A program made the position numbers and the translations under genes. From Amanita rubescens (taxonomy: Eukaryota > Basidiomycota > Agaricomycetes > Agaricales > Amanitaceae), in NCBI GenBank assembly GCA_015039365.1, contig WION01000214.1:28235-92234 (forward strand): a DNA stretch of 64,000 nucleotides, read 5' to 3'. This document shows positions 363 to 62,218 of this stretch, one piece after another. How positions within the stretch are numbered: the first letter of the stretch is position 1; each line of letters starts with the position of its first letter. Under the pieces are notes generated by a model that saw nothing but the letters and a program-made list of their open reading frames with translations, did not search any database and was not told the origin of the DNA.

Positions 363-3300
363 ATGATTTTTATGAAGAGTTTGCTCGGGCGCTCAAACTC
401 CTTCCCGCAGCCAATCACGAATTCTCCTCAGACATCCATACCATCTACGGCTCCCATCGAGTCAATCCTTGTACCTACAACAGACGAGATTGAGGAGGAA
501 TGTCCGAGGTAATGTACTTGCAGTTACTGATTGATGGAACCAACTAAACATGGTACAGATTCCGGATCCTTATCGTTGGTCGCGTAAGGCTTGTTTACCG
601 TTCCACCTGCATGTTCAGTTCATGGATCCTCTGATAGTCCGGTGTGGGGAAATCGTCACTTATCAACGCTATATTCAAGGCTTCTCTAGCGGTATATCTT
701 CTGTCACTGTTAATCAACAACTTCGAACGAAATTTAGGATGTCCGACATTTCGAAGCAGGCACGGCCGATATCAACACAGGAATCACGTCGCCTCACAAC
801 AAGCACCTCGCCATCCATGACTCTGAAGGTTACGAGCCAGGAGATGAAGAAAAGTTCCGTGTTTTGGAGAAATTTATCACAGAGCGGAGTCAGAAAGAAA
901 CCATTCGCGAGAAGCTTCATGTAATCTGGTGTGCTCATAGATGATGCGAATCTGTGATTCTGATTCATGTTATTCGACAGGTTATGCATTACTGCACCTT
1001 ACGTTGGTGGCCCAATATTCCAAGCATGGGACGAGAAGATTTTCAGGTTGAATCAGAGCAAAGGTGATTACTTGCGATCCTTATCCCGATTTTGGCTGAT
1101 TGTGATAACAGTGCCGATAATCGTCGTTTATACAAAGTTTGACCTTTTCATGGCGAACAGCCAGCGCTGGGGCAAAAACGACATGGGGAAGGGTGACGGT
1201 AGTCTGGAGTCCGCAGAGAAGCACTTCTATGATAAGTATAGCCAGTTATTCGCGAAATCTACGAAGCACATCGAGGGTCGGATACCATACACTATTGTCT
1301 CAAGTGCGTTCGTGTCTCCAGTTGCTTAGTATTGACTCACATCTCCATGCAGAATTTCAGCCTGAAACCTTGCTACGACTCGTCGAAATAACAAGGGAAA
1401 ATATACGCGCCAAGTATACAACCGTATCGAGCGGACTCTCATCCGGTAGATGTGATTCCTCCGATGCAGCTCTTTCAATAATCAGTTGGCAGAATCAGTT
1501 GAAGACATTCTGGATGCAGCGCAGATTACTTTTGCAAGGGCGCAGCGTGTTGATACCTCGGGTAAGATTGACGCATCAATAAAGTAAGTATCTGTCTAGA
1601 ATAGACCTGGTGTCTTATTATTATCATAGAGTAGGGAAAAAGAGTAAATCGAACCCTCAGCTTTTTTCAATGTCCTCACTACGATTCACAGAATATTGGA
1701 GAGCAATAGCATCTGGGATACACTTCCTCAATTTTAGCATGAAAAAGTGCTTAGACGTGATACACAAAGACATTGTTGCCATTTGGAACATCCGGGATAT
1801 GGAAGGGGTGCGTGCCGGAGAATATCTCAAATGTGTCTTTGGATTCATCATATCTTGTAGTTCTTTCTCGGAGATGCGTTTTCTCGCCAGATGCTGACCT
1901 TTGTGGGTGAACTTGGTAACCAGGGTCAGGGGAATGACAACCCACTGTGAGTGGATATGACAGATTAATAACTTGTTAAGATAATCAACGTAATTAACGA
2001 AAAGGGCTATGATGGCGTCGGCGGGCCTAGCGAATTTGTGGGCCAGCGGTGTTTACAAAAGATGGTAAGCACGTGCGACTCTTTATCGCAACAAATGTTC
2101 AACTTCTGACAGGCCGGAGCACGTCCGTTGTCTGATGGGTTACGTAGTGGATCTCACGCTCATCCTACAAGCCGTTTTCCTAGTTTCCCTTTATGATCAT
2201 TCCGAGGGCAAAGTTTCACTAGACCGCGTAAAGGAAGTCATTTACGAGTTTTATTTCTCGGAAAAGAAAAAACGTATTCATAATGCAATCCGGCATTTTC
2301 GGCCCTCGTTCACAAAGGGTGATGTGGTTGATAAGATCGAGTCTTTGTTAAAGGAAAATGAGGTATGCAAATTACATTTTTACCAGAACCAATTACTGAT
2401 CGTGCGCTTTCGACGATCCGCTATAGATGACGAAGATTGACACACAATTTGGCCCAAATAGAGCAGTCCTTCCATCATTGCTCAGAATACTAAGGTTCGA
2501 AGTGGGTACTTTTGAACCATCACCGCTCCGTTGCTAATGACTACCAGCTAAGCGCTAATGACCTGACAGTAAACCAGACTATCCTCGGGCTTACGCGCAT
2601 GCTATTCGATTCACTGTCCGATCCTTCAGACTATGTCCGGGTTGTCTCCGAAATGAGGGATCAATTTGATGTCGAGATGTTAATTGATTTCAACCTCCTT
2701 GTACATATTACCTTTTTGCTCCCTTGTTCGACGTACTTATTCCCCTTAGTTGCTCCACACTGACAGCCTGTCAAAATTTGGCATTCAAGATGGAAACCGT
2801 AAAGCGAGGACGCTGATGTTCAAACTGGTAACTAAGACAAGTATTACACCAAGATCTCTCTTCATTACAGACATCAAGATCGATAACGACGGTGCCATCG
2901 ATATAAGAAGTTTGGGGCGTGTATTCAGAGGCGAATACAAAGGAAAGGTGGTTGCACTGAAATTGATGGACAAAGTCCTTAAAGACGTTAGCGTTATGCT
3001 TTTCTTTTTTACAATCCTGATTCATTTGTTAAGGGCAAGTTCAATCAAAGCCAAGATTTTGTTCTGGAGGTCCTAGCACGGCGATCACTCACACACCGTT
3101 TCGTTCTTCCTTTATTCGGAATATTTGTAGATAGAATGCGGCCATTTTTGGTGTCGCCATACACGGAAATATCATTAACTCAGTGGCGAAGGGCTCAAAC
3201 ACCAGACGTTCTTGAGATAAACAGGCTGGTAAGCCTCCAGCCCTCAGAACAATCAAAATGGGATCACTAACGTTGACCAGTTGCAGCAGGTGGCTGAGGG

Positions 3301-6300
3301 TGTTCGGTATATTCACTCAGAAGGAATTGTGCATGGCGATTTGCGCGGAGTGCGTATTTTAACATCATATCTTGGCCATTATTTAAATCCCGACCCGCTA
3401 GGAAAATGTCCTCCTCGACGCTAAGAACAACTGCCAAATTGCTGCTGATGTCGACTTAGACCAACATTCCAATGGCATTGTAACGCTATCCGCTGCGGCC
3501 TTTTCGTTCAATTACGCTGCGCCTGAACTGCTCATCATGCGGCTTGAGAACAATGACTACCTTGAAGACCACGAAGAGTGGGGAAGCAAGACAATGCAAA
3601 CGGATGTGTATGCTTTTGGTTGCCTTTACTACGCAGTACGTTTCATGTACTCCTTGTTATGCAGAACGCAGTTAGCAATGACTTGGGCAGATATTCTTTA
3701 ATTCCATTCCTTTTGCGGATAAAATTGAATATCAAAGCACGCGGCTTGTTGGAGAACGCCCAGAACGATTATCAGGCCCGAGAATGGGCGACGGCTTATG
3801 GAACCTTATATATCGATGCTGGAGCGCCAATCCTTTTGAACGTCCCACAATGACGAACATAACCGAGGAATTGCCCACTACGCTTGCACAAGATGGCCAA
3901 CAGATCGTCAAGGAAGCGGAAGCATTCGTGCCCCTCCAATCATTACTTGCAACAATGAAAAAGGTATACACTCCCGGGACATTATGTGCCGCTGCTAACC
4001 GCTGCTAGCTAGCACCACTTGGAGGCACAATGGTTAATGAAAACACGGCCCACCTCATCTGCCAAGTATTTGAGCTAGGCGAAGCCGATATCTCTAGACT
4101 GACCGCATCGGACGTCAAGTTGATGCTTGATTCACTCCTCCATGTCTGTACCAGTTTTTTAATAGTTCACTTATTAATTTTTATGTCTTCATTGTTCTAG
4201 CTGCTTCGCAATGGTAGCCTGTCGAACTCGAACATTCAGGATGCAAACCAGAAAGCTAGGAACCTGCTGTTTAAGCTAATATCTGCGACAGATGCTCTGC
4301 CCAGTTCTCTGTTTATTACTGGCGCCAGAACCAAGGTAGATCTTGCATTTAGTGCCAATGAACGGGTAGGTTCTGGACAAGTTTTCAAAGGTGAATACAG
4401 GGGGCAGCAGGTTGCACTGAAAGTGCTTCACAAAGGCCGAAAAGAAGTTAGTGCATTCTTTTCTCCCAACAATACTGATTTCGTTTTGTAAGGATTCACT
4501 CAGGAGATGCTTCTGTCAGGAGGCTCTAGCATGGGCATCACTAGTCCACCGTAACATTCTCCCACTACTGGGAGTATTTGAGGAACAGTCATGTCTACTT
4601 CTCGTTTTGCCGTACATGACATGCATGACAAAAGGAACGTTAAGCCAATGGAGAAAGGTTGAATCGCCATTAGTCTTAGTCGAGATACATCGGCTGGTAA
4701 GATTCTAGTAATTGTCAGAAAGGTTGGTGGAGTTACTAGTATTGTTTGTTAGATGCAGGAGGTGGCCGAGGGTGTTCGGTATATTCACTCGGAAGAAATC
4801 GTTCATGGGGATCTGCACGGAGTGTGTGTTCAATTACCTTGTTTGTCTACCAATTCATTCGTTGTCTTCTAGGACAATATCTACCTCGATCCCGATTTTC
4901 ACTGTCAGATTGCTGACTTCGGTTTGACATGGCGTTCCGACCCTACCGACACAAGGTCCAACATGCACAAACTGAATTTTGCTGCCCCAGAACTATTCAC
5001 TTTGTGTGACGAATGTGGCCAGTATGGCTGCAATGGACGTTGTGAGGACTATGACCGTGGCTTCCCACAAGGAAAGAAAACAATGCATGCGGACGTATAC
5101 GCCTTTGGCTGTCTTTTTTATTCAGTGAGTTTGTCATCAGATTCACCACGCCCGACGATGACTGGTACAGATATTCTTCGATACCGCACCTTTTCAAGGA
5201 AAAACTGAACATCAACTTGTCCAGTCCGTGATAAGTGGGACACGTCCGGTGCGACTTAACAGTCCGGTAATGGATGATAGCTTTTGGATTCTCGTAGAGC
5301 ATTGTTGGATGCCCAACCCCTTCGAACGTCCGACAATGCAGCAAGTCGCAATAAGATTTGAGAACTTTTCTCTCCCCTTGATGTCGTTACCTGAAGCCCT
5401 CTCATCGTTACTTGCAACCCTTGATAAGGTATACGTTTTCAGGCCATCAACGTACCGCTGTCACCACTAAAAACTACTAGTGTGCATCCATCGGCATCTC
5501 GATGGTACAGGAGGATGCCGTCTTCCATATGTCCAAGCTGCTGAACCTATATGACACCCATGCTATCGCCTCCAAACTAAGGAATAATTCAGATGTCGAA
5601 ATAATGCTTAATTTTGTTCTCGACGTATGTATAGTTTCGCTCAGTCAGTTTACCCGAATTCAATGCTTTACGTTCTTTAGCTACTCCTCGATGGCAGTCT
5701 GATGAATTTAGGAATTCAGGATGCAAATAGGAAAGCTAGGAGGCTAATGTTCCACTTGATATCCAAATCAAGTGCCATACCACAGTCACTATTCATTACT
5801 GACGTCACGATTGAGAAGCATCTTGGCTCGATCGGTAGGGGAGGATTTGGACAGGTTTTCAGAGGCAAATACAAAGGACAGCAGGTAGCAGTGAAAGTGG
5901 TAGAGAAAGGTCGTAATGATGTTCGTGCATTGCAAAATCTTTTCTTATATTACTAGTACTAATCGATTTGTAAGAATTCGCTCATCAAAGACTTCTGCCA
6001 GGAAGCCTTGGCATGGCGATCGCTCTCGCATCGCTTTGTTCTTCCTTTGCTAGGAATCTATGAAGAGAAATTGCAGCTATCTCTGGTATCACCATTCATG
6101 GAAAATGGTACGTTAAGTCGGTGGAGAAAAAAGCATACACCGGATGTAGCCAAGGTTCATAAGCTGGTAAGACTATGGTGATTGTCAGAGCAGTAAAACA
6201 GTTTACTCACCCCTCGTAGATGCTAGAGATAGCTGAGGGGGTCCAGTATCTTCACTCGGAAGGAGTTGTGCATGGCGATTTACACGGGGTGCGTACTTCA

Positions 6301-6854
6301 ATATCAAACATTCCCAAGGGACTCACGTCATTGTCTACCAGGGAAATGTTCTCCTCGATTTCGAATTGCACTGCAAGATTTCCGATTTTGGATTGGCGCG
6401 ACATACTGAAGCCACTTTTACACGATCCACCAGAACGTTTTTGCCCAATTTTGCTGCTCCTGAATTATTTGGTATGTGCACCAAGTGCGGTGAACCCGAG
6501 TGTGGCGGATGCTATGAGGGCCCCGATGAGCATCATATAGGGAAAACAATGGAGACGGATGTGTACGCATTCGGTTGCCTTTATTATGCGGTGCGTTTGA
6601 TGTATTCCTTTAAGGAATCAACACCTATTTAGCGGTGGTTTTCACAGGTGTTCTTTGGTGTTATTCCCTTCCACGGAAAAAATGACTATCAGATTATGGG
6701 ACTCGTCACAAAAGGAACGCGTTCAGCACGACTAAACAATCCAACAATCGACGACATTACGTGGAATCTCATCACAAGCTGTTGGGCTCGCAAACCTTCC
6801 AAACGCCCAACAATGGATGAAATCGTGAAGACAATGAAGTCGTCTTCGCACTAG
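363..6854 (+). CDS. GTPase domain fused to three tandem kinase-fold units
   Basis: A multi-intron gene. The P-loop (GRSGVGKSS) is split by an intron at 584-637; the G3-like motif HDSEGYEPG lies at 813-842 and the G4 motif TKFD near 1132. A helical/hydrophobic region with YVVDLTLILQAVF lies at 2115-2363. Three kinase units follow. Unit 1 (2760-3970) has a poor glycine loop, VALK, HGDLRG and DVD instead of DFG, so it is probably a pseudokinase. Unit 2 (4200-5430) has VALK, HGD and DFG. Unit 3 (5690-6854) has GRGGFGQVF, VAVK, HGD, DFG and AAPELFG and looks catalytically competent. A helical linker precedes each unit, and the inter-unit introns (GTATAC donor, CTAG acceptor) keep the frame, which supports one gene. 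The usual start codon of the paralogues is ACG here (417), so I chose the in-frame ATG at 363; ATG at 372 is an alternative. Two separate transcripts cannot be excluded. Confidence 0.72.
387..398 (+). promoter_or_regulatory. Shared GCGCTnAAC box, here inside the extended reading frame
   Basis: GGGCGCTCAAAC lies 18 bases before the ACG that sits where the paralogues have their ATG. The same box precedes the start of all six GTPase-kinase genes. In this copy the upstream ATG would make it coding. Its function is unknown: leader element, transcription start or protein site. Confidence 0.35.
1630..1643 (+). other. 14-base microexon
   Basis: AGTAGGGAAAAAGA sits between a splice acceptor (ATAG) and a donor (GTAAAT) and encodes a VGKK-like basic patch that joins the GTPase part to the YWRAIAS exon. 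Exons of exactly the same length occur in the paralogues at 15390, 28447, 34379, 43366 and 57829. Confidence 0.55.
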
Positions 6855-7734
6855 GGTGACCTTGACCTATCACCTATCGCCAAGGTACGCCATAGTCACT
6901 GCGCCATTCTACTATATTTTTACTGCACCACGCATTGCGGCAGATTCGAAATGTATATATAGTTAACTGTAGGCCTGGAATGTGAAGGGCTTTAGGATGC
7001 TACTTATGAGCTGTATTTGTATTACATGTAGTAACAATCAAGCGGAGCATCTTCGAAAGGTACCCGCTACGTCGACATTCTCATCCTGCGGAAGCCACTT
7101 GCTGATAGCGATTCGCTCTGACAACTGTCAATCAAGTTTCGGTCATCACGAAAATAGAACGCCAGAACTCGCAGCTTACTCGGCGACAACCTGATCATAA
7201 GACGATACTGAAGTTGCTAGGAGATGATATCGATGATAGTTGATAGATTTGTGGTGGAGGAAGCTGAACTTCATGGACTAGCAACTGCGTCTTCGTGCGT
7301 GGAATTGGCCCGGGCCCAGTGGTATCACTTCTAAAAAAAAGTTAAGTCACAAACCGCCACACGTCACCTTGCGTAGTAGATATCACCTGTAATCAACAGT
7401 GTTCCTGGAACATGCACATACCTTCGCACAGTGCAACGTTGCTCGCTACTTTGACTCAACATAACGGAAGACCGTATATGTCGTTAAAGCATCCAATAAC
7501 TCAGGGAAGAGGCGCTAGCTGCCCATACCCGATCCGTATGTAGTCCCCGGTAGGTTCACCTGTTGACGGTTCAATGCGGCTGCTTGTGAATGACAACGAC
7601 ACGACGGTTTTAGGTGACTGGGACTCGACCTCATAAAGGTGTACAGAAAAGAACTATCCAGCCTGACGGTCTATGCTTGTATGTGTTACCCGCGCTCCGT
7701 GGTTGCAACTTGATCATTGACGTTTTCTCGCAGG
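6855..7734. other. Intergenic, no gene seen
   Basis: The 3' flank of the tandem-kinase gene. No kinase, 4HB or other recognisable exon was found before the relic at 7735. It is AT-rich near 6930-6970 and otherwise featureless. Confidence 0.45.
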
Positions 7735-7983
7735 AGGCAATGGAGTTCAAGCAAGACGATGGAAACAGACGTGTATGCTTTTGGCCACCCCAACTGTGCA
7801 GTACGTTCCACCTGTTCCTCAAGCGTATTTAGCAACTGGGCAGATACTATTCCTTTTGTGGATAAAAATGAATATCATGCGGCTCGGGACCTCATTTACC
7901 GATACTGGAGCACCAAACATTTGAACGTCCAGCAAGTAACAGAGGAATTGCCAACTGCGCTTGCTCAAGATGGTCAATATTGA
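7735..7983 (+). pseudogene. Kinase C-lobe relic
   Basis: The frame contains KTMETDVYAFG, the alpha-F motif of the neighbouring kinases. After an intron-like gap come a damaged IPFVDKNEY segment and an IYRYWS/LNVQQVTEELP segment matching the C-terminal helices of unit 1 in the gene at 363-6854. N-lobe, catalytic loop and activation segment are missing, so this is a truncated copy left by recombination. Confidence 0.6.
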
Positions 7984-8594: not shown

Positions 8595-10640
8595 ATGCGT
8601 CATTCCACTTTCCCTGCCGTTCTCTGTCCAGTGGTTCAGATCGCAACAGCCGCCTCGCTGGTTCCAGGCTTGAGTCCTGCCGTAGGAGATCTCCTCGGCA
8701 TCATCTTCAAGCTATGCGAAAGTGTCCCACAAAACAGGCACCTTCTACCTTTCTTCACGCAGTATTCCTTCTAACTCGTCTACAGGAACGCTGCTAAGCG
8801 ACTGGCTGAGAGATGCGTGCAACTGTGCCAACCGTTGAAGCAGTATGAACAGATGGATATCCCCCAGCGGATGGTTCGATACCGGGATAATGTGTCCCAG
8901 TCAGTTGTCAAATCTTCGGATGATGGACTCTGCTGATAATGTCTAGATGTCTTACACAGGTCAGGGATACAATGGAAAAATGGTCCCGGAAGAGCTGGTC
9001 CAATATGTTGGTGCATCAAGGCGAATTCGAGGCAGAATTCAACTATTGCGACGAATGCATATCCAATTGCTTAACGATGTTCTCTGTAAGCGTCGATGGC
9101 CTAAAGCGAACGTCTTTTAAACAATGTTTAGGTTGGTGCTCAAATGGAAGGGTTGGTATACCAGAACGAAGGCGACAAATGGAAGAGAAATTTCCAGGAC
9201 GAAGACGAAAAGTGGAAGAGAAATCTCAAAGAGAGTTGGGACGCTGACCACGTAGACGTCATGAAGCAGTTTTCGGCTGTAGACTTCAAGCAACGCGTCA
9301 TGGATAGTAAGGTTACGGAATGCCACGATGATATAAGGGCCCTCCAAATGATGATGCAAAGAGTATGTTGGTTCCATAAGCGGGGGCATGGACTACATGA
9401 CAATCGGGATTAGGGCTTAGCAGGACACAGAATCGTATCAGAAGAGGAGCAAAAGCGTTTGGCGACGAATTTATACGATTTGCTTCAGCTTTCGAATCAG
9501 CTTCCACCCGATTGCCAACTGGATGGAATGGTCGAGTTGTCGCGTGACGTGCCCATCTCAAACGGCCACGCCGATATGTGCAAGGGGAGATATCTCTACA
9601 GCAAAGATGTCCGAATCAAGGTCATTCGCTCTGCCAATCCGAAGGATCCTGATACCATCAAAGTGCGTCCCTTTGGTACCGGATACCTTCGCCGTAACTC
9701 ATGTGCTTTTAGAGGATCAAGCGCGAAGTTGAGATATGGGCAAATTTACAAGAAATAGATCAAGGAATGCATGTTATGCCGTTTTATGGATTCTATACCC
9801 CAGATGGCCTTCGTCTGTAAGTGATTTTGACAATATTGAGGCACTGTCATTGATGTTTTCATGCTAGTGCCCTAGTTAGCCCGTGGATGGAAAATGGTGA
9901 TGCGCTGGCGTATGTCAAGAAGAACAAGTATGTTGACCACAAACAGCTGGTGCGTCCCTTTGTCCCATCTTCACGTGCAAATCTTGACGACGCTATTACA
10001 GATCATTGGAATTGCTCAGGGGATAAAAGTCCTTCACTCTATGGAGCCGCCTATTATTCACGGAAACTTGAGAGCTGTTCGTGTCCTCTTTTCCTAACGA
10101 TCTTTCCGAGTACTAAACCGTTCATAAGGAAAATGTACTTATTGGAGAGGAAGGTCAACCGCTGATCACAGACTTTGCGCTTGCTAAGGCACGTTACGTC
10201 GATTCTACAGTCATATGTATCGCTAAATCTTCCTATGATAGCTCGAAGGGAACTTGATCACCCAAACCAGCGGCGTATCAGATAGCTGTCGATGGAGCGC
10301 ACCAGAGATGTTTGAAGATCAAGCTACTGTGTCATCCAAGGGCGACATTTACAGCTTTGGGATGACGATTTTGCAGGTTGGTCCCGACTTGGTTTTATGG
10401 GTAAAGCTTGGGTGCTGATTGTTGTTTACGTAGTTGTTTACGCAAGATAAACCGTATGCCAGTCGGAAAACATTTCAGGTGTTCAGTAAAAAGGTAGCAG
10501 GTGCGCTGCCTGATCGTCCGCGAGATCTGGGTGTCATCAGGCGTGGGTTGGATGAAACGATGTGGAACTTTCTTTGTGCGTGCTGGTCTAGGGAGCCGGA
10601 GGATAGGCCTTCGATTGAGCAGATTATAATGCAATTTTGA
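8595..10640 (+). CDS. MLKL-like four-helix-bundle pseudokinase, copy 1
   Basis: The first exon (8595-8737) has a hydrophobic VPGLSPAVGDLLGIIFKLCE helix ending in PQNR, the signature shared by all Family 2 copies. The next exons give NAAKRLAERC, a CLTQVRDTMEKW helix and a coiled-coil-like brace before GLAGHRIVSEEEQ. The kinase-fold half (about 9460-10640) keeps a VRIKVIRS lysine strand but has no glycine loop. It has IIHGNLRA (HRD Asp changed to Asn), TDFALAK (DFG changed to DFA), CRWSAPEMF, YSFGMTILQ and a C-terminal CWSREPEDRPSIEQ. It is therefore a predicted pseudokinase. In animals MLKL has the same order, and its 4HB attacks membranes once the pseudokinase is switched; that role here is inference. 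Introns at 8738 and 10189 start with GC. The start lacks the myristoylation motif seen in two paralogues. Confidence 0.75.
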
Positions 10641-20100: not shown

Positions 20101-20323
20101 ACTGAATTTAGCCCAGTTGTTTACGCACGAGAAACCATACGCCAACAAGAAAACTGCTCAGGTCTTTTCCGAGAAGCAGACGGGTGAGCTTCCCGACCGT
20201 CCGCAAGACGAGCGTGTCGTCAGCCGCGGATTGGATGACAGAATATGGAAGCTTCTCTGCCAATGCTGGTCCAAGAATCCAACAGACAGACCTTCGATTG
20301 AGGAGCTTTTAGCAGAGTTTTGA
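14196..20323 (+). CDS. Fusion: GTPase-like domain, pseudokinase, kinase, MLKL-type pseudokinase
   Basis: Starts MRSSSGRPVESY, then FRILIVGR and, after an intron, TGTGRSSL: the P-loop lysine is Arg, so GTP binding is doubtful. HDSQGYEPG (14584-14616) and TKFD (near 14897) are kept. The YVVDLTLIQQAIF region lies at 15885-16135. Kinase unit 1 (16500-17630) lacks the VAIK lysine, has NFG for DFG and no APE. Unit 2 (17880-19050) has GAGGFGRVF, AALK, HGDLHG and ITDFG and looks active. It then runs in phase 0 through an intron (donor after KQR at 19052) into the brace and pseudokinase of Family 2 (19100-20323), which has HGNFRA and SDFALAK. The 4HB is absent. The junction intron resembles the matching Family 2 intron, so recombination probably occurred there. 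A read-through of two genes is the alternative; cDNA would decide. Confidence 0.65.
15390..15403 (+). other. 14-base microexon
   Basis: AGTAGCGAAAAAGG between ACAG and GTGAG, at the position equivalent to 1630-1643. It links the GTPase region to the HWRTMVAGIRLLNVS exon. Confidence 0.5.
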
Positions 20324-24152: not shown

Positions 24153-24154
24153 CG

Positions 24155-48700: not shown

Positions 48701-50928
48701 ATGGGTTGCTTTTCTTCCAAAGTCAACAACGTCCTTCAGGACGGGATACTGCTTGCTACTTCCATGGCTCCCGTTCCAGGCTTGGGACCTGCTGCCGCTC
48801 TTGTGATCGACATCATCAAGCTATGCCAGGCGGTTCCACATAACAGGTGTGGATAATCATTCCCACGGTGCAACGTTACTTTCTAACTCTTCGCAGAAAT
48901 GCTGCTCGCAGTCTGGCTGAAAGGTGTCAGAACCTATACAAAGCTCTAGAGCAGTACGAGAAGAAGCCTATTCCTGATAGCACAATTCAACCCCGTGATG
49001 CGGTGTTCAAGTCAGTCGCTGGTTCTTCAATGAAGGGTTTCCACTGACAACGTTTAGATGCCTCAATCGGGTCAAGGACACGATGCAGAAGTGGTCGGAG
49101 AAAAGCTCGTTTGACATGTTGTTGTTCCTGGGCGAATTCGAGGCCGAGTTCGATTATTGTGATAACGCAATAAACGATTGCCTTAGAACCTTTAGCGTTA
49201 GTTCCTTGTTTGCAAAAGGGTGCATTTCTAACAAATTTCCAGACTGTTTTCCAAATGGAAACTCTGGTACACCAAAAAGAAACGGAAAGATGGAGAATGG
49301 ACCTGAAAGAGCGCCAGGACGCCGACCATAAAGATATTATGGAACAGCTCGCTGCTGCCGATTTCACACAACGATTGACAGAGAGCAAGGTCTTGGAGGG
49401 CCAGAATGACATAAAGGGGATTTTGGTGATGATGCAAAAGGTACGTGAACTGTACACGTGGAGGCTTGGATTGCTTAACATACGCGATTAGGGCCTAGCG
49501 GAACACAAGGTCGTGTCGGATGAGGGACGCAAGCGTATGGCCAAGAATCTATACAGATTGCTTCGGTTGTCGAATCTGGTCCCACCCGAATGTCAGCTGG
49601 ACTCTGGAGAGATTGAGTGGTCGGGAGAAGTTCCCATTGACGGCGGCAACAAAAACGTTGACATGTACAAGGGTCTATATCTCCAAAGTGAGGACGTGAG
49701 GATCAAGGTCATCCGCTCCGTCAATATGAAAGACGAGAATACGGTCAAGGTATGTCTTCCTGATGCTGAATCCTACTTAGCTCGTGACTCAAAACACTCT
49801 CAGAGGATTAGGCGCGAGGTCGAACTGTGGTCAGAGATTTACGCAGTGGACAAAGGAAAACACGTTATACCATTCTATGGATTTTACAGCCCGGACGGCA
49901 TTCGTCTGTGAGCGCGCTCGAGAACGTTATACAACGCCCCTTATGCTAACGTTTCTGCCAGTGCTTTGGTTAGCCCATGGGTTGATAATGGAAATGCTTT
50001 AGCATATGTCATGAAAAACGACAACGTTCTCGATTATAAAAAGCTGGTACATTGCCTTGCCTAGTTTTCACGCCAAGAGTTTAATTGCATCAGTAGATTA
50101 TCGGCATTGCAGCAGGGATCAAAGTCCTGCATTCTATGAAACCTCCCATTATCCACGGGAATTTGAGAGCAGTCCGTACCGTTGTTCATCAGTCACATAA
50201 GAAATCATTGATATCTTGATCAGGAAAAGGTACTTATCAGCGATCAGGGCCAACCACTAATCGCGGACTTTGCGCTTGCAAAGGCATGTTTCCGCGATCT
50301 GTTTTCATACGTATTGCTAATCTTATTGTTGAAGATCGAAGGAAATCCGATCACCCAAACCACTGGGGAGTCCGATAGTTGTAGGTGGTGTGCACCAGAG
50401 ATGTTCGAAGATCAGGCCACCGTGTCAACCAAGGGTGATGTCTATAGCTTTGGCATGACGATTCTCCAGGTTAGGCTCAGTTCCTTCTACTTTTTGTCTG
50501 AGATGCTCAATTCTTTTCAGTTGTATACACATGAGATGCCATACGTTAATATCAACAAAACCTTCCACGTGTATTCTAAGAAGCGGGAGGGTGACGGACT
50601 ACCCGATCGCCCGCAGGATGAGCGTGTCGTCGAGCGTGGGTTGGATGACAGAATATGGGGGCTTCTTTGCCTCTGCTGGTCCAGGGATCCGGAGCGCAGA
50701 CCTTCAATTAATGACTTGGAAACGAAACTGTTGAAACCGGCTGAGCAGTTGCCTCAGGGGTCTTCTGCAGTTTTAACCGGGAATGAGCTGGTCGTGGAAC
50801 CGATCACAGTTTTGGCAGGGAACGCGCTGGGCGTCGAGGACGATTTCGGCGGTGAGGGTCACGGACACGATGCCGAGCATAAAGGTGTAGAGGAGGATGA
50901 TACGCGAGTGCAAGCTATTGCATGCTAA
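48701..50928 (+). CDS. MLKL-like four-helix-bundle pseudokinase with N-terminal acylation motif, copy 3
   Basis: Starts MGCFSSK: Gly2 with Ser6 fits an N-myristoylation site, and Cys3 could be palmitoylated, so membrane attachment is likely. Next come VPGLGPAAALVIDIIKLCQA and PHNR, NAARSLAERC, CLNRVKDTMQKW, and a brace ending ILVMMQK. The kinase fold (49500-50720) has EWSGEVPIDGG, VRIKVIRS, RRIRREVELW, FYSPDGIRL, HGNLRA, ADFALAK, CRWCAPEMF, YSFGMTILQ and CWSRDPERRPSIND. HGN and DFA make it a predicted pseudokinase. The intron after DFALAK begins with GC (50284). A tail of about 70 residues after the kinase fold is acidic and His-rich (GGEGHGHDAEH) and ends in Cys. By family this would be a membrane-acting effector held by its pseudokinase; that is inference. 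Confidence 0.78.
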
Positions 50929-51908: not shown

Positions 51909-53962
51909 ATGCCATCATCCCTTGCGAACTTCTTCTCTGCCTTTACCAGGACGGGAGTCCAGCTCACTGTATCCGTCGTGCCAATCCCTGGCCTGGGACC
52001 TGTCAGCGACCTCCTCTTGGGGATCATCGAACTTTGCGACAAGATCCCCCAAAACAGGCATGTACTGTCTGTCGCTCACGACCCGCGAGCGCAATTCATC
52101 CTTAATTTTTTTCTCACAGGAATGCCGCTCATCATCTGGCTGAACGATGTCACTATCTGTGCAAGGCTCTGGGGCAGTACGAGACGGCGCCTCTTCCCAA
52201 TCGGACGGTTCAATACCAGACAGCGGTTTTCGAGTTAGTCGTTGGTCCCTCCAGAGTCCACGTTCAAGGATTTCATTGATCGTATTTGTAGATGTCTCAA
52301 AGAAGTCGAGCATACGATGCGCGAGTGGTCCAAGAGAAAATGGCACTATCTGTTAGTACACCAAGGTGATCTTGAGGCAGATTTCCACGTTTGCGATACC
52401 AAAGTATCCGACTGTTTTCTTATCTTCATGGTGAGCAGCCTGAGGTTGTATCAAATGAGGTTTTTGTTATTAATCATCTTTCAGACCGCTGCCCAAATGG
52501 AAACACTTGCACGCCAGAGAGAGGACGATGAACGGTGGAAGAGCCTGAAAGAGAGTCTTGATGCTGATCGCAAAGTCATTATGGAACTGCTTGCCGCTCC
52601 CAATCTCGTGCAATGGGTGAAGGAGAGTAAACTTACGTCGTATGATCAAAAAGAGATTTCCGCGATGATCCAAAGCGTGCGTTGATTACACATATGGAAG
52701 CCCGTCCTACTAACATGACGTCCAGCTTTAGAACTTAGCGGAACGTAACGCCATATCGGAAGGGGAACGCCAGCGTATGGCAAAGAATTTATACGACCTG
52801 CTTCAGTTATCCAATCAGCTTCCGCCAAACTGCCAGCTGGACTCTAGAATGGTCGAATGGGCGGGTGAAGCACCTTTCGCAGGCGACAGGAACGCCGAAA
52901 TGTACAAAGGAAGATACCTCCGCAGCCAAGATGTGAGAATTAAAGTCATCCGCTCGGTCAATGCAGGGGATGAAAAGAGTATAAAGGCGCGTTGCTCCTA
53001 ACATAGAATCGTCTTTGATTGACATAACGTTCAGAGAATTAGGCGAGAGGTGGAGCTATGGTCGAAGATTCATAACACTGATCAGGGAAAACACATTATA
53101 CCGTTCTGTGGTTTCTACTCTCCGGATGGCGTGCGTCTGTGGGTGCCCTCTTTGGTGTTACGTGTGTCCCTCGCGCTAATACACCTTAGTGCTCTGGTTA
53201 GCCCGTGGATAAGCAATGGAGACGCGCTGGCATATGTCGAAAGGCACGACAATCTTCTCAACTACAGAAAACTGGTGCGTTGCTTTGACCGTTTCCTGCG
53301 CCGTGTTTTAATTCCATCATTGCAGATCCTCGGCGTTGCAGAAGGGATCAAAGTCCTCCATTCCATGAATCCTCCTGTTATCCACGGAAACCTGCGAGCA
53401 GTCCGTATCTGTTATGCTAGCCAACGTATACAGGAGCGCTGATATCTTCAAAGAGAAAAATACTTATCGGAGACGCCAGCCAGCCCCTGATCACGGACTT
53501 TGCGCTTGCCAAGGTATAAATGTCACCTTCGGCCATGCATATGACCTAAATCGTGGCTTTATAGCTGGAAGGAAACTTGATCACTCAAACAAGCGGCGAG
53601 TCGGATAGTTGCAGATGGTCCGCCCCAGAGATGTTTGAAGATGGAGCTACCGTATCGGCCAAAAGTGATATCTACAGTTTTGGAATGACGGTTTTGGAGG
53701 TTGGTTCAAGTTTTTATAAGTTTGATATTGGGTCCTGAATTTTGCCCAGTTATTCACGCACCGGGTACCATACGCCGATATCAAGAAAAATATACAAGTG
53801 ATCAAAAAAAAAGAGAAGCCAGACGGAATACCCAATTGGCCGCAAGATGGGCAAGCCATTGGGCGTGGACTGGACAATAGAATGTGGGGTCTTCTCTGCT
53901 TATGCTGGTCCAAGAATCCACAGGACAGACCTTCGATTGACGAACTGGTGATGCAACTCTGA
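51909..53962 (+). CDS. MLKL-like four-helix-bundle pseudokinase, copy 4
   Basis: Starts MPSSLANFFSAFTRTG, without a myristoylation glycine; then VVPIPGLGPVSDLLLGIIEL and PQNR. Exons give NAAHHLAERC, CLKEVEHTMREW and a brace with ETLARQREDDERW. The kinase fold (52740-53962) has EWAGEAPFAGD, MYKGRYLRSQDVRIKVIRS, RRIRREVELW, FYSPDGVRL, HGNLRA, TDFALAK, CRWSAPEMF, YSFGMTVLE and CWSKNPQDRPSIDE. It is a predicted pseudokinase by HGN and DFA. Two introns begin with GC: one after the first exon (52058) and one before IRREVE (52987). It lies 980 bases after copy 3 in the same direction, a likely tandem duplication, though the N-termini have diverged. Confidence 0.75.
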
Positions 53963-54450: not shown

Positions 54451-56658
54451 CAATGATTACCTTTGCAATTTAAGACTAATGGTCACGAATACGAGGCTTA
54501 CCATAGCAATTTCTTAAACGAAGTGACGTACCGGAACCTGATGATCACTGCCAACCCACATACCTGATTAGAGAAACAAGTACTGGTCTATCTAACAGAT
54601 GACGAGAGAATCGATTGGATACTCACCGAAACTGCGGGAAAATTCGCTGGTGATCCGCTGAAGTAGCACCTGTGTATGTATCCTATTGGCTCAGCTGTTG
54701 ACGAATTGTCGACGTCGAGACTTTTTCAGATCGAGCAAGTTGTACATCAATCGTAAAGGCCCTTTTGCTATACTGTGACCTCGGGTGGCCGCAGTGCATT
54801 CACACGAGTACGTAGTCACACCTTACCATTTATCTCTCATCTTTGTCAATTCACTCCACTGATTATTTGTGGTTCTGGGCGTCTTCGGGATCAAAGCAGG
54901 ACAATTGCGGATGCAGCCACCATGTGATTTTGCTGCGTCCGCAATCCGTAAAGCCAAGACCCTCAAATCATGGGCAATGTCGGAGATGCCAATATCTTCA
55001 ACACGAACAAAGTGTCATCTCCGACTTCGTGGATCTGTCTAAAGATTGGTGTAAGGTGTGGATTGGACGAACTTACATAATCTTTGACTGTCTCTTTGCA
55101 TGTATGATGTGTGGCATACATATGGAACGGCGATGCTTAGGCTTGAAAATGCAGTACAGCAGTCTACCTTTGAGTTTCTTTGCCATTCGTTTCTTAAATT
55201 CATTCAAGTGCCGCCCGTCATTCTTCAGCTCACAATTCACGATTCCTTCCTGGAGAAAATAAAAACAGAAGGAACACTCACCTAAACCTAGGGAAAATCC
55301 TGCAACCCGTATATCCTTCCCAAGCAACCCCTCGCCCATGACGACGTGCTCCTCTGAAACCCTGCTAGCCGCGAGGTCCATCTGAAACAGGGCCCCAGAC
55401 GTCCTTGGAACTGGGCGATGTGATGATGATCCACTTCTTCAACAAGCAACGTAGATTTGCGCAGCGGCGTGGAACAATGTGGTGGTAGTGTGGTTGATGA
55501 TGATATGGCATATGCGGCCGCTGTGGGAGTGGACCTGGCTATAGCCGAAATGAGGCGAAATTTACGGGTGTATCCATGTCTTGGAATACACCAACCGCGT
55601 GATTATGTGCACGGGTTCAAAGTGGAGCCTGTGAGACGGAAAAGGAGCAAGCTGTGCATATTGCGAAGTCTGTTATAAAGAGACGGGTGAAGTCGGTGGA
55701 TGGAAACGTGGCATCGCATGAGTCAAGGGTTCTGAAAATTTGAGCCTCCTTTTAAGGCTTTCTTGCGTTTCAACTTTTGTGATGCTCGATCATCGACCAG
55801 AAGCTCTGGGAAGGAGTCGGGGAGAGATCCGCAGTCGCCCGTGAACACGCGCTTTACCGTAAGGAAGCGCCGAGACTCGTTGATCAGCTATCACTTGGCT
55901 CGAGTCTCATGCCAGCAGTGGCAGGCTGTCACGGTATCTAAGGCGTCCTAGTCAGTCTCACTAATGTCTCTTTACTCACAGCGTGGATCTGCGCCTCGTC
56001 GAATCGCGAAATAATCCATGAACAATGTGTAGGTCCTAGCAGCGAGATTTGGATATGTCAAATATCAAGATCCAATTTTCAGCTAAGTTGTAGGTGACAT
56101 GTATGTAGTAGTTAGGGCTGGCGTACTATCATGTCTTGGTTGCGAACTTCTAGGTAGCATCCGATTATTAGGTCACAATTTTTTTATATGCCCATTAGAC
56201 ATACACAAGGAACAGAATCTAAAACTAAGAGCGAACTTAGTATAATGCCACGCTGGCGTAGAAATAGGTAGAAATTGTTTACTCCACTCTTTGATGACTA
56301 GGCGACAGCGTCAAATATTGCCGCGATGCACGGTTGAACGTTTAGTCATCATGCTTCTCTCCTCTTTGTTCGGTTTCTTATGGGATTGATGCATTCACCC
56401 CCGTATGAATGAAAGAATATTCTTGGCTTCAAGCGCTGTTTGGCCAGACGACACGGTCCGAGTCCAATCCGAACCTGATGCTGTCGAATATGCCGGCTTC
56501 AATTGAGTTCAATGAAGGGGCTGCCGTAATGGTCCTTCACAACATTGACATTGAACATCCACGTTCGCTTGTTCTCCGTGCCCCTTCAATCGCCCAGTGA
56601 TTACTCATCACAGATGCAGGACAGCCTCGGCGCTAAACATTCTCTTCACTCCACGACC
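54451..56658. other. Intergenic, no supportable gene
   Basis: The longest frames (54843-55262 on +, 55073-55381 on -, 55457-55678 on +) show no known domain or splice pattern. The 3' end holds the leader box of the next gene. Confidence 0.35.
56629..56638 (+). promoter_or_regulatory. Shared GCGCTAAAC box
   Basis: GGCGCTAAAC, 20 bases before the ATG at 56659, an exact match to the copies at 14166 and 27190 although this gene is broken. Confidence 0.4.
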
Positions 56659-59600
56659 ATGAATTCGGGTTGGAGTTCACGGGTGTCTCTGACCTCTGTT
56701 AATCGCACCGAGACAAACGTTGTGCCTACTACAGACCGAATCGTAGAAGAATGCCCAAGGTGATATTAGGTTGAACCATCGAAAGAACTAGCTGAATTTG
56801 TTGTAGGTTCCGGATCCTTGTCGTCGGCCGAGTAAATCTTGTTGCCGTTCCTACATGTTTTTCCTGATATCATTTCACAGTCTGGGATGGCGAAAGCGTC
56901 TCTTATCAACGCTGTGTTTGGGGCTCCTTTCGAGGTGCATCCTCTTTTTGGCTGTGCTCCAACCGCTAACCACCATCTAGGAAATTCAGGGCCTACCAGG
57001 CACAATTCCCATCAATCGAGAATTCATCTCGCAACGGAACAAGCGTCTGGCTATCCATTATTTTAATGATTATGAACCAGGAAGTGTGGAAAAATTCGGT
57101 ATCTTGAAAAAATTTATCACAGATCGTAGTCGGAAGAAGTCTTTTGCTGAAAGGCTTCATGCTATTTGGTGCGCCTTTAAATCATGCAAAGCAACCTAGT
57201 TCATGTTATCTCTCAGGTTATGCGTTCCCGCACATTCCGCTGACTCGAAACTCGCATTGGATGAAAAGATTTTCAAGTTGAATCGAAATAAAGGCAACTA
57301 TATGCAATCTTTATCTGAATCTATACTCACGTTGATAGTAGTACCGATAATTGTCGTTTTGACTAAATCCGACACTTTTGTATCCAAGCAGGCCGAAGCG
57401 AGCAAGGGCAGTCAAGAATCTGCCGAAAGGGAATTCAAAGAAAGATATGATCGGGTCTTCGAGACGTTGATCAAGAACGCTGTTATACCGTACACGCTCG
57501 TATCTCGTATGTATGCTTCTTGTGTCGCTTCGACCATGTTGACATCTTCTTTCAGTCTTGCAGCCTGAAACACTCCAGCGGCTGGTTCAGACCACGATGC
57601 AAAGTGTAAGGGACGGAAATTCAAGGCCACTATCTTTTCTCGCTCGCTTCAAGAAACGTTTATCCAGGGAGAACTATCAACCAGCAAGATCAGATGAAGA
57701 ATTAGCGAGTCCAGCTCCAGCTGTTTTAGCTGCGGCACAACGTGTTGATATGACGGTTAAGATTGCAACATCAATAAAGTACGCTACCATGTCCCCAATA
57801 TGCTAGATCTGACGCCTTACTATCACAGAGTAGGAAAAAAGAGTAAGCGGTAAGCTTTCAACGTTCAACGTTCTTAACGTGGCTTGCAGCAATAGTGCCT
57901 GACGCGCACTTCTCCAACACTGTTCTACAAAAATGCCTAAACGCGATACATAAAGACATTGTCACGATCTGGAATATCGAGGATCCAGATGAGGTACGTG
58001 CCAGAATCTATATAAGCTGTTTTTTTCGGATTCATCGTACCTTAATAGTTACTTCTCAATGACACATTCCACCGCCGGATGATGGTCCTTGTGGATGATC
58101 TCGGGCAAGACGAACCAAACATTACCTCGACTATGTGGGTGGAACGACAACCTTCTTAACAATCAGCGCAGCTGATGGTCATTGTCAGACCAAGAAATAC
58201 GACAATAGCATCGACTGCGACTGCGCCGAGCTTAGCAAGCGTGCAAACGAACGGTGTTCACCACAAATTGTAAGTAGACACCTCTGTTATACCGCCCATT
58301 GTGCTGAACTTCACAGGCCCGAGCATATCCGCTGTCTCATGGGCTATGTAGTGGATCTCACACTTATCCTACAAACTGTGTTTCAAGCTTCGTTCCAAAA
58401 TCAATCGACAGAGAGGGTGACACCTGACTGCCTCAGCGAAATCCTCTATGAGTTCATTTGTTCGGGAAAGAAGGATACGATTCATGCTGCTATCGTTGAA
58501 TTTGTCGGACATCAACATCCACCCGCAAGTAATGACATAGTGGATAAGATCACGTTGTTGATCGAGCAAAATGCGGTATGACACTCATATCCCAGCGTAA
58601 ACGTACCTGCTAATGATACAACACAGATAAGAGAAAATGATCTACGGTTTGATCGAACAAGGCCTCTTCTGCCCACATTACTGGCCGTTCTCAGGGTCGA
58701 GGTGTGAGCTTTCAAAGTATTTTAACACTAGTACTAATCATCAATGCCTTTCAGCTACCTGCGCGTAATGCAGTCAATCGGATCACTCTCGATTTTATGA
58801 GGAACTGTTGAAGCCACATGATTATCACACCATCGCTGATGAACTGACCATGAATTCGGACATTGAGCTATTCCTTGATTTCATCGTCTTTGTGCGTCGT
58901 TGTGCTCGAGCCATTAACCTTGCTAATATCCTTTTCAACTAGCTACTCCACGACGGTAGCCTGGCTAATGACGACCTTCCAGATGCAACTCGAAGAGCGC
59001 GGAGACTAATGGGCAAGCTGTCCGAAAAGGATATCTTGCCCAAATCTCTATTTATTACCGATGTTAAGACGGATTCCACATTCAGAATCATTGGAATGGG
59101 AGGCTTCGGAAATGTTTCCACGGGCTCACGCGGAGGACAGCATGTTGCGCTAAAAGTAATATACAGAACTTCTCATCAAGAAGTCAGTGAATTACCATCG
59201 TCAACATTCTGGTGCTAATTCCTTTGTAAAGGATTCACGCCGAAGAGTTTTTCTGTAGAGAAGCGCTTGCATGGCGATCGCTCTCACATAAGTTCATCCT
59301 CCCACTTCTCGGAATATATGAAGAGGAAGGTGGCTATTCCTTGTATCACCGCTTATGGCGCATGGAAACATTGTCTGAATGGAGGAGGAATCAGAAATCG
59401 GACGTAACCGAGATACATAGGCTGGTAAGATTCCATGTTTATCAGCGCGACAGGGTACTGATATCCACTAGATTCAAGAGGTTGCTGAGGGGGTTCAGTA
59501 TATCCATTCGGAGGGGATTGTGCACGGCGACTTGCACCCAGTGAGTATCTTGATATCACACTGTTTGAGTGATCAATTTAAACCGTTGTGTACTAGGGGA

Positions 59601-60103
59601 ATATCCTCCTCAATGATAATTTCCACTGCCAAATCACTGATTTTGGATTAACACGACATTCCGAAGCTACCGTTGCGCGATCCACCACGACACATCTGTC
59701 ATATTTTGCTGCACCAGAACTGTTTGGTACATGCGCTCATTGTGGCCGAGCAGAGTGTGCGGGATGCTTTGTTGGTAGTGAGCAGCCCCATAGAAGCAAA
59801 ACAATGAAATCGGACATATATGCATTTGGTTGTCTTTATTATGCGGTGCGTTCGAGCGCTCCTCGACTTGATCAGCACATTGAGCATTGGTTCACCCAGA
59901 TATTCTTTGATACGGTTCCTTTTGAAGGAAGACAGACTATCAAATCACACGACTAGTTACAGCTGGAACGCGGCCAGATCGGTTAGCAAATCCAGGAATG
60001 GATGAAGATACGTGGAATCTCATCCAGAGCTGTTGGAAACATCTTCCTCTTGAAACGTCCGACAATGGAAGAGATCGTTCGGATGCTGCCTCGGCCTGCA
60101 TAA
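56659..60103 (+). pseudogene. Broken GTPase-kinase gene with dead G-domain
   Basis: Starts MNSGWSSRVSL. The P-loop reads GRSGMAKAS (GKS changed to AKA), and the G3 region reads HYFNDYEPG (DSxG lost), though TKSD is kept. The intron at 57294 begins with GC. YVVDLTLILQTVF lies near 58345. The linker exon has a one-base loss near 58800 leading to TGA at 58809. A single kinase unit (58940-60103) has GMGGFGNV, VALK, HGDLHP, ITDFG, AAPELFG and a Cys4 insert (TCAHCGRAECAGC). A further one-base loss near 59925 brings a TAG, and an extra A near 60054 shifts LERPTMEEIV. With three frameshifts it is very likely a pseudogene. It has one kinase unit, and that unit resembles the active-type unit of its relatives. 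Confidence 0.75.
57829..57842 (+). other. 14-base microexon
   Basis: AGTAGGAAAAAAGA between ACAG and GTAAGC, conserved even in this broken copy. Confidence 0.45.
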
Positions 60104-60220
60104 GATCAATGGTCTATTCCCTTATTCCGCAGCCGTACTCTTTGAGTTATATAGTATTGCAACTCCATTTATTATGACGATCGTATAGTGAGAGCTTTGT
60201 ATGTACTTGTGTAGTCGATG

Positions 60221-62218
60221 TTAATGAATAGAACCAAGCTGTTTCACTAAATCACCAATAGATGGTCTATCATTCGGACTCTTAGACCAGCATCGGCAGA
60301 GAAGCTCCCACATTTTGTCGTCCAACCCACGCTCGACGACACGGTCGTCTTTGGGGCGGTCAGGTAGTTCACCCTGCCCCTTCTTGAAAACCACCTGGCT
60401 ACTCTTTTTAACATCCCGGTAGGGCATTTCGTGTGTAAATAGCTAAACAAACTTGAGTATGCCAATATCAAACGTAAAAGAAGATCTGGTCCGACCTCTA
60501 GAATGGTCATGCCAAAGCTGTATATATCACCCTTGGCCGACACAGCAGCTTGTATTTCGAATATCTCCGGTGCACACCATCTACAACTGTCCGACTGGCT
60601 AGCAGTTTGGGTGATCAAATTACCCTCAAGCTATAAGGGTGCGATTGAGCCATAGATCAATGCAGAATAGATTGACGTTACATACCTTCGCAAGTGCAAA
60701 ATCCGTGATTAGCGGCTGACCTTCATCTCCAACAAGCACATTTTCCTTATAAGAAGTTAGCATACTCATACGCAAGTGTCATACAAGGACACAAACGGCT
60801 CTCAAATTTCCATGAACGATAAACATAGAGTGGAGGACCTTGATGCCTTCTGCTATTCCGATAATCTACAACAATCAATATTTCAGGAAAAGTGGATGAA
60901 GTAACGTACTAGCTTTTTGTAGTCAATATCCTTGAAGTCATTCCACTTCTGGACATAACTCAGCGCATTTCCATTATCCATCCATGGGCTAACCAGAGCC
61001 CTTGTGTGATGACGTTATAACAATGGACACTGCATGACATTGCCAGGACTCACAGACGAAGACCATCAGGGGAGTAGAAACCGTAGAATGGTATGATATG
61101 CCTTCCCTTGTCCTTTTCATATATTTTCGCCCACACTTCGACCTCACGCCTAATCCTCTGAAGGTATGTGGGTCACGAGGGAAGATCCAACGACAGTGAG
61201 ACGTACCTTTACGTTGTTCTCATCCTTCATATTGATGGAGCGGATGACCTTAATTCTGACATCTTGGCTGTTGAGATATCTCCTTTGTACATATCAATGT
61301 TATTGCCGTCCTCCATGCGTCTCCCTCCAGCCCATTCGACTACTTTAGAGTTTAGCTGGCACTCCGGTGGGACGCGACCAGAGGATCGCAACAATTCGTA
61401 TAGGTTTTCTGCCATATGTCTGCATTCCTCGTCCGATACGGTGTCTAAGCTCTATTTCCGAGTATTAAGGTAACTAGCCTAGGCTTGGATGTACACAATC
61501 GACGCACCGTTTGTATCATCGTCGAGACCACCCTTTGATCATCTTCCGTAATTCCGCTGTCCCTTACTTGTTGCACGAAATTGGGAGAGGCAAACTGGCC
61601 CATCATATCTTTACGGTCGACATTGTGCATCTCTTCCAGTATCCTTCTCCGTTCTTCCTCTTCCTGCTGGTGTGTCAGCCCTTCCAAATGCGCAGCCGTC
61701 TAAAAGGTCGTCAAAAGCATTCCCTCTAGATATAGAGCGCTTACACTGAAGATAAGTAGACAGTCAGATATTCCTCTATCGCAGGCATCCAAATCCGCCT
61801 TAAAATCGGCTTGGCGCATTAGCATATAAAACCAGTTTTTCTCAGCCCATCTCGTCATCGTATCCTTAACCTGGTTGAGACATCTACAGGTCATCAGCAA
61901 AATGGATTGTAGAGGGACAAACAACTGACCTGAACACATGATCTCGGTATTTGACTGTCCGCTTGGGGAAAGGCAGTTCTTCGTACTGCCCGAGAGAAGT
62001 GCACATGTCCTTACATCTCTGAGCGAGGTATCGCGCAGCGCTCCTATTAACAAGTCTATTTGATTATACTGCGAGAGGTACGATACATACCTATTTAGAG
62101 AGACCATTTCGCATAATTGGATGATGATGGTGAGAACGTCTCCACCAATTGACACACCGGGAAATGGTGCAGCACTGTGGAACGCAGACTTGGCAATGGA
62201 AGAGAAAGAACCACCCAT
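60221..62218 (-). CDS. MLKL-like four-helix-bundle pseudokinase, copy 5 (one-base frameshift)
   Basis: The only family member on the minus strand. It starts MGGSFSSIAK, a good N-myristoylation motif (Gly2, Ser6), then ISIGGDVLTIIIQLCEM-like helix and SLNR, SAARYLAQRC, CLNQVKDTMTRW and a brace with HLEGLTHQQEEEE. The kinase fold has EWAGGRRMEDG, then a one-base loss after MYKG (near 61282) that shifts the RYLNSQDVRIKVIRS strand out of frame. Beyond it the sequence recovers: IRREVE, FYSPDGLRL, HGNLRA, TDFALAK, CRWCAPEIF, YSFGMTILE and CWSKSPNDRPSIGD, stop at 60221. HGN and DFA are conserved. Unless the shift is a sequence error, the product would stop early but still contain the whole 4HB. It is convergent with the broken GTPase-kinase gene, whose end lies only 117 bases away. 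Confidence 0.68.

Follow-up and report, generated by a model that had tools for sequence, protein, structure and literature searches.

A 64 kb stretch of the Amanita rubescens genome (contig WION01000214.1 of assembly GCA_015039365.1; G000:C129:28235-92234 in our numbering), hereafter the window, carries an intermixed cluster of two gene families. Proteins of family 2 (F2) begin with an MLKL-type four-helix bundle (4HB) domain and end in a kinase-like domain with the motifs of a pseudokinase, and those of family 1 (F1) carry a GTPase followed by kinase units, the last of which is predicted to be active. One gene, g4, joins an F2 protein to an F1 kinase in a single predicted chain, every part of which is under purifying selection. 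The reading that we favour, and to which we assign a probability of about 0.5, is that the F2 proteins are MLKL-type executioners controlled by the clustered F1 GTPase-kinases, probably in non-self recognition.

The assembly comprises 75.7 Mb in 786 contigs, of which C129 holds the window. The longest intron-free open reading frame in the window is 234 aa, and genes were modelled with an intron-aware Viterbi gene finder (11 models) followed by a run for each region with weak homology hints; all models are computed, without RNA support. A sequence-only reading of this DNA had described six F1 and five F2 genes between 363 and 62218, and the independent intron-aware models reproduced both families with these numbers and outer limits, together with one F2 piece that lacks the N-terminal domain. 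F1 proteins consist of a GTPase, a middle region and then one to three units, each made up of a helical linker of about 115 aa (defined by a linker profile) and a kinase domain; in F2 proteins a helical N-terminus is followed by a brace-like stretch and a single kinase-like domain. The order is F1, F2, F1 (with the F2 piece), F2 chimera, F1, F1, F1, F2, F2, F1, F2, so that the alternation described in that reading holds in that the families are intermixed and fails in the runs of three F1 and two F2 genes. The predicted features are as follows.

363..6854, + strand: F1 gene g1; GTPase, middle region and three linker-kinase units.
8595..10640, + strand: F2 gene g2; helical N-terminus and putative pseudokinase (HGN, DFA).
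14196..19054 (to 19090 if the last intron is unspliced), + strand: F1 gene g3; GTPase, apparently dead unit 1 and complete unit 2; P0039 is a near-copy.
19101..20323, + strand: F2 piece g3b, following g3; end of the brace and putative pseudokinase, without the 4HB.
21986..24053, + strand: F2 part of chimera g4; 4HB and brace, putative pseudokinase (HGN, DFA); the true start upstream is not settled.
24107..25616, + strand: F1 part of chimera g4; helical linker as far as about 24590, then a kinase that has K, E, HGD, N and DFG.
27220..32137, + strand: F1 gene g5; GTPase, unit 1 with DVG for DFG and complete unit 2.
33100..38073, + strand: F1 gene g6; GTPase, apparently dead unit 1 and complete unit 2.
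42229..47182 (start at 42379 in the refined model), + strand: F1 gene g7; GTPase model without the TKFD (G4) part and complete unit 2.
48701..50928, + strand: F2 gene g8; N-terminus MGCFSS, MLKL_N match above the Pfam cut-off and putative pseudokinase.
51909..53962, + strand: F2 gene g9; near-copy of the annotated protein P0004, helix 2-3 segment abnormal in the window copy.
56614..60177, + strand: F1 gene g10; GTPase with a degenerate P-loop and a single complete kinase unit; 3' end uncertain.
60221..62218, - strand: F2 gene g11; N-terminus MGGSFS, putative pseudokinase, stretch with the beta-3 Lys lost.

Three tests agree that the F2 N-terminus is an MLKL-type domain, as the sequence-only reading had proposed. 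The Pfam family MLKL_N (PF22215) matches g8 with 31.8 bits against a cut-off of 27, and it matches 9 of 16 full-length F2 proteins at E<=0.01 and 13 of 15 isolated N-termini at E<=1. When a profile of 15 F2 N-termini was compared with 177,635 distinct PDB sequences (E<=10), seven of the eight matches were MLKL (4btf with E 1.1e-5, the other six 0.018-0.48), the eighth being MIC60 (E 0.66). Structure prediction, which that reading had named as a check, bore it out as well: an AlphaFold2 model was made of one F2 protein, P0004 (mean pLDDT 71.9), and in a Foldseek search of the PDB full-length mouse MLKL (4btf) ranked second and was aligned end to end (E 1.7e-13, 492 columns), while the other 49 rows listed span 299 columns or fewer, about one kinase domain. 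A search of the whole genome with PF22215 gave no match, and control genomes gave none either. The best PDB sequence matches of the F2 profile are the kinase domains of EGFR, TNNI3K, B-RAF, RIPK4 and RIPK2. Five of the 17 listed F2 starts of the Amanita type (g8, g11, P0001, P0007 and P0017) read MGxxxS, which we take to suit lipid anchoring.

The catalytic residues of the two families are in opposite states. All six F2 units of the window have HGN in place of HRD and DFA in place of DFG and lack a glycine loop, and the beta-3 Lys is kept in five of them, the exception being g11; on these motifs the kinase-like domain would be a pseudokinase. Within Amanita, the catalytic loops of the A. rubescens and A. 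brunnescens F2 proteins read HGN instead of HRD; those of the remaining F2 proteins, some of which are environmental sequences, read HGE, HGQ or HGN, apart from HGG in P0020, a short protein of A. polypyramis, and HGD in A. phalloides P0003. The last unit of each of the six F1 genes, like the kinase of g4 (7/7), keeps Lys, alpha-C Glu, HGD, Asn and DFG, and every F1 gene of the window is thus predicted to carry a catalytically complete (active-type) kinase at its C-terminal end. Four of the six F1 genes (g3, g5, g6 and g7) encode a GTPase and two kinase units; g1 has three units and g10 one. Both g3 (NFG) and g6 (HGN, DFS) have a clearly dead unit 1, with the changes K to T and E to Q in each, and the unit 1 of g7 is altered (alpha-C Glu lost, HCD, DTG). 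In g1 (DVD for DFG) and g5 it is altered only in the DFG motif, the Lys, Glu, HGD, Asn and Asp of DFG being kept, and of the further units of g1 the second is complete except for the Gly loop and the third is complete. The pseudokinase that had been proposed ahead of the F1 kinase is therefore shown for g3 and g6 and not for g1 and g5, and g10 has a single unit. P0006 and P0018 were left out of the motif table of kinase units. The GTPase family PF01926 matches g1 with 46.2 bits (cut-off 21.9) and 9 of the 14 members of the F1 alignment A2 at E<=0.01; the GTPase half of the predicted F1 structure has pLDDT values mostly below 50, and VIA-align of the F1 model listed only kinases among its rows. 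P0044 from Hohenbuehelia and P0045 from Hysterangium also match the F1 query and have only PF01926 as a precomputed domain.

The closest tie between the families is g4. The first gene-finder run read 21579-25616 as one gene, and in the refined model (21986-25616) an F2 4HB, brace and pseudokinase lead into an F1 linker and a kinase of active type, the F1 half having neither GTPase nor first kinase unit. A copy of g4 on C6 that is about 14% diverged has all 18 exons open, with length changes of only -3, +12 and +9. The joining intron (24054-24106) has GT and AG ends in both copies; two donor sites of the first g4 model are GC in C6, and one of these was replaced by the GT at 24054. Between the two copies the ratio of non-synonymous to synonymous substitution (dN/dS) is 0.23 for the 4HB and brace, 0.54 for the pseudokinase, 0.31 for the linker and 0.24 for the kinase, and the excess of synonymous changes has p values of 1.8e-6, 0.004, 0.002 and 1.1e-8 respectively.

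Other joins of the two families are seen. The g4-type linker is also matched on C74, C1 and C22, and on C1 and C22 it comes shortly after the end of an F2 sequence in the same orientation. Annotated protein P0017 is an F2 pseudokinase followed by an F1 linker (linker profile E 3.5e-28), and a similar layout that continues into a kinase unit is predicted at C6 56483-59393. The reverse order is possible at 19054/19101, where g3 and g3b are open in frame across a 46-nt intron (19055-19100) whose donor GTGCGT and acceptor at 19100 are unchanged in C6; g3b has a dN/dS of 0.26 against its C6 copy (synonymous excess p 0.0025). The predictor can merge neighbours, and therefore a join was counted only if its second part had no beginning of its own, so that models at C6:70236-76465 (F1 and F2) and C6:98169-103098 (two F2) were not taken as chimeras. 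We also considered whether 24107-25616 and 19101-20323 are dead remnants, and rejected this on the dN/dS values of linker, kinase and F2 piece and the synonymous excess. The decay reported in the sequence-only reading is confined to limited cases, namely the Lys stretch of g11, the G4 part of g7, the P-loop of g10 and the helix 2-3 segment of g9, for which no exon match is listed in the window copy and one is listed on C74 and on C334. In A. brunnescens, F1 AX14_000496 and F2 AX14_000497 are on contigs listed with the same size, 39608. The fusion of F2 with an F1 kinase hints at a kinase-triggered cell-death relay in mushrooms, without proving it.

Relatives of F2 with a complete kinase suggest how such a pseudokinase could have arisen. 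When the N-terminal part of a Marasmius fiardii relative was used as query, eight proteins were found, itself and seven others, all from Marasmius or Tetrapyrgos; seven of the eight (P0019, P0096-P0098 and P0100-P0102) have HGD, Asn and DFG, and P0099 ends before the catalytic loop. An unrooted tree built from 53 kinase units has F1 as one group (100/100) and F2 as another (98/95), and the active-type 4HB kinases adjoin F2, although they are held together weakly (64/87). The tree leaves out P0006 and P0018, P0010, P0036 and P0042 (length filter) and P0041 (no kinase anchor), and P0021-P0030, P0044-P0095 and P0099 were not used. Most simply, a 4HB kinase of active type would have turned into a pseudokinase within Amanita, its catalytic Asp having been altered on more than one occasion. 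F1 may have formed by the addition of kinases to an older GTPase family.

We infer that F1 acts on F2 from their clustering and from the chimeras. F2 would be the executioner, with a membrane-attacking four-helix domain restrained by the brace and by a pseudokinase unable to phosphorylate, and F1 the upstream switch, built of a GTPase, a first kinase unit (in most copies either dead or altered) and, at the C-terminus, a complete kinase. In response to non-self or to damage, the GTPase half of F1 would assemble or be released, the C-terminal kinase would phosphorylate the F2 pseudokinase (on the activation loop or the brace), and the 4HB so freed would breach membranes; an activation-loop Thr that is invariant in the alignment A1 (T391 in P0004) is the first candidate site for this phosphorylation; g4 would hold executioner and kinase in one chain. 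A fuller account, which we offer tentatively and hold to be likelier wrong than right, is that of a kinase-driven necroptosis relay of mushrooms in which GTPase-gated F1 proteins phosphorylate F2 and g4 is self-contained. It would have been built when a 4HB-kinase like those of Marasmius lost its catalytic Asp in Amanita and ceded phosphorylation to F1, giving an independent counterpart of RIPK3-MLKL that serves non-self recognition.

Copies of these genes on other contigs show constraint. In 14 pairwise comparisons of whole genes with other copies, dN/dS is 0.04, 0.06 and 0.07 for g8 (three copies), 0.10 and 0.40 for g9, 0.17 for g5, 0.19 for g7 (235 comparable codons only), 0.25 for g3, 0.26 for g3b, 0.30 for g10, 0.33 for g6 and again for the g4 kinase half, 0.44 for the model of its F2 part and 0.51 for g11. 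Presence and copy number do vary, between contigs of one assembly and not between isolates. C129 and C6 are collinear at about 95% identity with segments at 86%, and C6 lacks window positions 38.1-46.3 kb; C1 lacks most of g9, only the first exon being left. In a 10-kb block found on C1, C6, C74 and C129 (window 46.2-56.7 kb), all six pairs of copies differ in 8 of 17 comparable 500-base intervals, and the other intervals hold tracts of 100% identity beside diverged ones. Three RPB2-type genes occur twice (C90/C301, C361/C364 and C35/C208), and C696 and C331 each carry one more match; should two nuclear types be present in the assembly, the block exists in more versions than two, through possible gene conversion, duplication, extra haplotypes or assembly effects. 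The pattern is thus one of constraint and not of amino-acid diversification. Of the diversification typical of conflict that had been proposed for this locus, the variation in presence and copy number holds and that at the amino-acid level does not, and the argument for conflict is one of copy number only.

A number of observations weigh against the favoured reading. MLKL_N was not matched by g11 (E<=1) or by P0004 (E<=0.01 at full length, E<=1 as an isolated N-terminus). Confidence is low over the first 80 residues of the P0004 model, and its alignment with 4btf has template modelling scores of 0.37/0.44 and a root-mean-square deviation of 27 over the whole chain, so that the domains are alike but differently placed. 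VIA-align of the F2 model listed kinases only, MLKL being absent from the 50 rows of a list filled by the kinase domain. The full pseudokinase signature is not universal, since HGD is retained by A. phalloides P0003 and DFG by A. inopinata P0016, and unit 1 of g1 and g5 may be active, pseudokinase status being shown only for g3 and g6. If the g4 junction is read through unspliced, as the open frame of both copies allows, F2 would terminate with the stop codon 24150-24152, so that a product with F2 only is also possible. Positive or diversifying selection was not found in pairwise dN/dS comparisons of 14 whole genes (0.04-0.51) and five parts (0.23-0.54), which included no significance test for the whole genes and no site models or test of balancing selection. 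In searches that scored about 8,000 candidates each, F2 matches were obtained from A. muscaria, A. polypyramis and A. inopinata and none for F1. Finally, the families also occur apart. Although F1 and F2 models are intermixed over 110 kb of C6, and C1 has F1 at 275-522 kb and F2 at 281-377 kb among the matches listed, other contigs have one family only: among the matches listed, C75, C246, C270, C608, C385, C412, C760 and C473 have F2 without F1 or linker, and C13, C21, C42, C56, C119, C152, C234, C235, C332, C501, C704 and C769 have F1 without F2. The genome lists of F1, F2 and linker matches are lower bounds. Pairing is therefore not obligatory, and the clustering may be a by-product of tandem duplication.

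These last points are the strength of the first alternative, that two unrelated expansions fell in one duplication-prone region, F2 being an MLKL-like executioner triggered by an NLR (a nucleotide-binding oligomerization domain (NOD)-like receptor), by self-assembly or by another kinase, F1 having a separate job and the chimeras being retained by-products of unequal exchange. The F1 module is very common, linker and kinase start being matched at least 157 times in the genome, often in stop-free frames and many of them on other contigs, which points to a large kinase expansion in A. rubescens; and joining by itself says little, since the gene finder also merged two F2 genes on C6 (98169-103098). 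Nevertheless, we consider this alternative less likely than the favoured reading: the F1 half of g4 starts without GTPase and first kinase unit and is hence more than a neighbour, purifying selection is seen on all four parts of g4 against a copy that is 14% diverged, F2 is joined to a linker in another chimera as well (P0017 and C6 56483-59393), and a reverse join is possible at g3/g3b.

A second alternative makes an NLR the sensor, F1 a scaffold or amplifier and F2 the executioner, in a heterokaryon-incompatibility relay like NWD2/HET-S with kinases in place of amyloid. Between two F1 models on C6 (84629-91042, loci L042-L043) lies a predicted protein of 1982 aa with a NACHT-like NTPase (NPHP3_N E 8.5e-22, above cut-off; NACHT 25.9 bits, just below its cut-off of 26.7) and 21 WD repeats with a mean pairwise identity of 79% over 36 residues each. 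WD repeats of such high identity are typical of fungal non-self-recognition NLRs, and this protein looks like one. Agaricomycetes have many NLRs, so that chance linkage is plausible for the single one seen, which lies outside the window and has NPHP3_N well above cut-off but NACHT below it. Known amyloid-signalling NLR and executioner units are generally clustered in the genome (PMC12881547). We regard this relay as improbable. Equally poor is the case for ordinary signalling, in which F2 would be a regulatory pseudokinase with a helical adaptor that breaches no membrane and F1 a GTPase-kinase of development or nutrient sensing: the strong purifying selection seen for g8 would suit it, as would the expansions of another kinase group (FslK) in Agaricomycetes that are proposed to act in mushroom development (PMC3937382), but the F2 N-terminus is specifically MLKL-like, and copies that come and go between contigs, with a block in at least four versions, are odd for housekeeping genes.

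The favoured reading, executioners under the control of clustered kinases, can be set beside known systems. Animal MLKL (4btf, PF22215) has the same order of 4HB, brace and pseudokinase as F2, matches its N-terminal profile and resembles the whole chain of the predicted fold; it has lost the catalytic Asp and kept the beta-3 Lys, as have five of the six F2 units of the window. Unlike MLKL, F2 is fungal, forms a multi-copy cluster, has several MGxxxS starts and is fused to a kinase in g4, and its activation and lytic action would follow only by analogy. Similarly, a complete F1 kinase is proposed to act on a 4HB-pseudokinase as RIPK3 does, although F1 carries in addition a GTPase and one to three kinase units.

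Among fungal proteins, the HeLo, HELL and BaMLKL domains (in HET-S, HELLP and NLR N-termini) belong to the same 4HB superfamily as the F2 N-terminus. MLKL_NTD-like domains are common in basidiomycete NLRs (PMC9815663), and the figure legend of a 2025 review places some HELL domains in kinase or pseudokinase proteins (PMC12881547). The described proteins of these types are driven by amyloid motifs or fused to the NOD of an NLR, and HET-S/HELLP-type executioners end in an amyloid motif, whereas F2 ends in a kinase-like domain to which its 4HB is fused, with a further kinase in g4. NWD2/HET-S two-gene clusters likewise combine sensor and executioner (PMC12881547), and here an NLR with high-identity WD repeats lies in the cluster outside the window; the relay proposed for F1 and F2, however, is a kinase. 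In plants, MLKLs and wheat Pm13 are MLKL-type proteins of immunity, and the available part of the source makes no mention of a clustered GTPase-kinase partner or a chimera (PMC10951266). The tandem kinase immune proteins Pm57, Lr9 and WTK7-TM (PMC11153570, PMC10260399, PMC11006675) resemble F1 in layout, a resemblance only, and F1 has in addition a GTPase at its N-terminus, each of its units being preceded by a helical linker. Among the papers listed in a literature search, none was seen to describe a fungal pair of kinase and 4HB-pseudokinase, a GTPase-kinase partner clustered with such a protein or a chimera of executioner and kinase, the nearest being the legend remark in PMC12881547. Fungal 4HB executioners are known to be triggered by amyloid templating or NLR fusion. 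A 4HB-pseudokinase that shares a cluster, and in one gene a chain, with an active-type kinase would allow a direct test of the kinase-to-MLKL step of necroptosis outside animals and of the way in which a killer kinase is converted to a killer pseudokinase, and the cluster is a candidate self/non-self locus in an ectomycorrhizal mushroom.

Three further features lie in or near the cluster. Between g1 and g2, window 7747-7819 is an isolated stretch like an F1 kinase exon (repeat family D9) and is likely a relic. Window 38823-42000 is a multi-copy repeat with 56 genome matches, probably a transposable element, and C1 matches only the sequence that precedes it. Elsewhere on the same contig (G000:C129:4611-7627, locus L031) a protein is predicted that contains repeats as well as a GTPase domain of AIG1 type (30.1 bits, cut-off 27).

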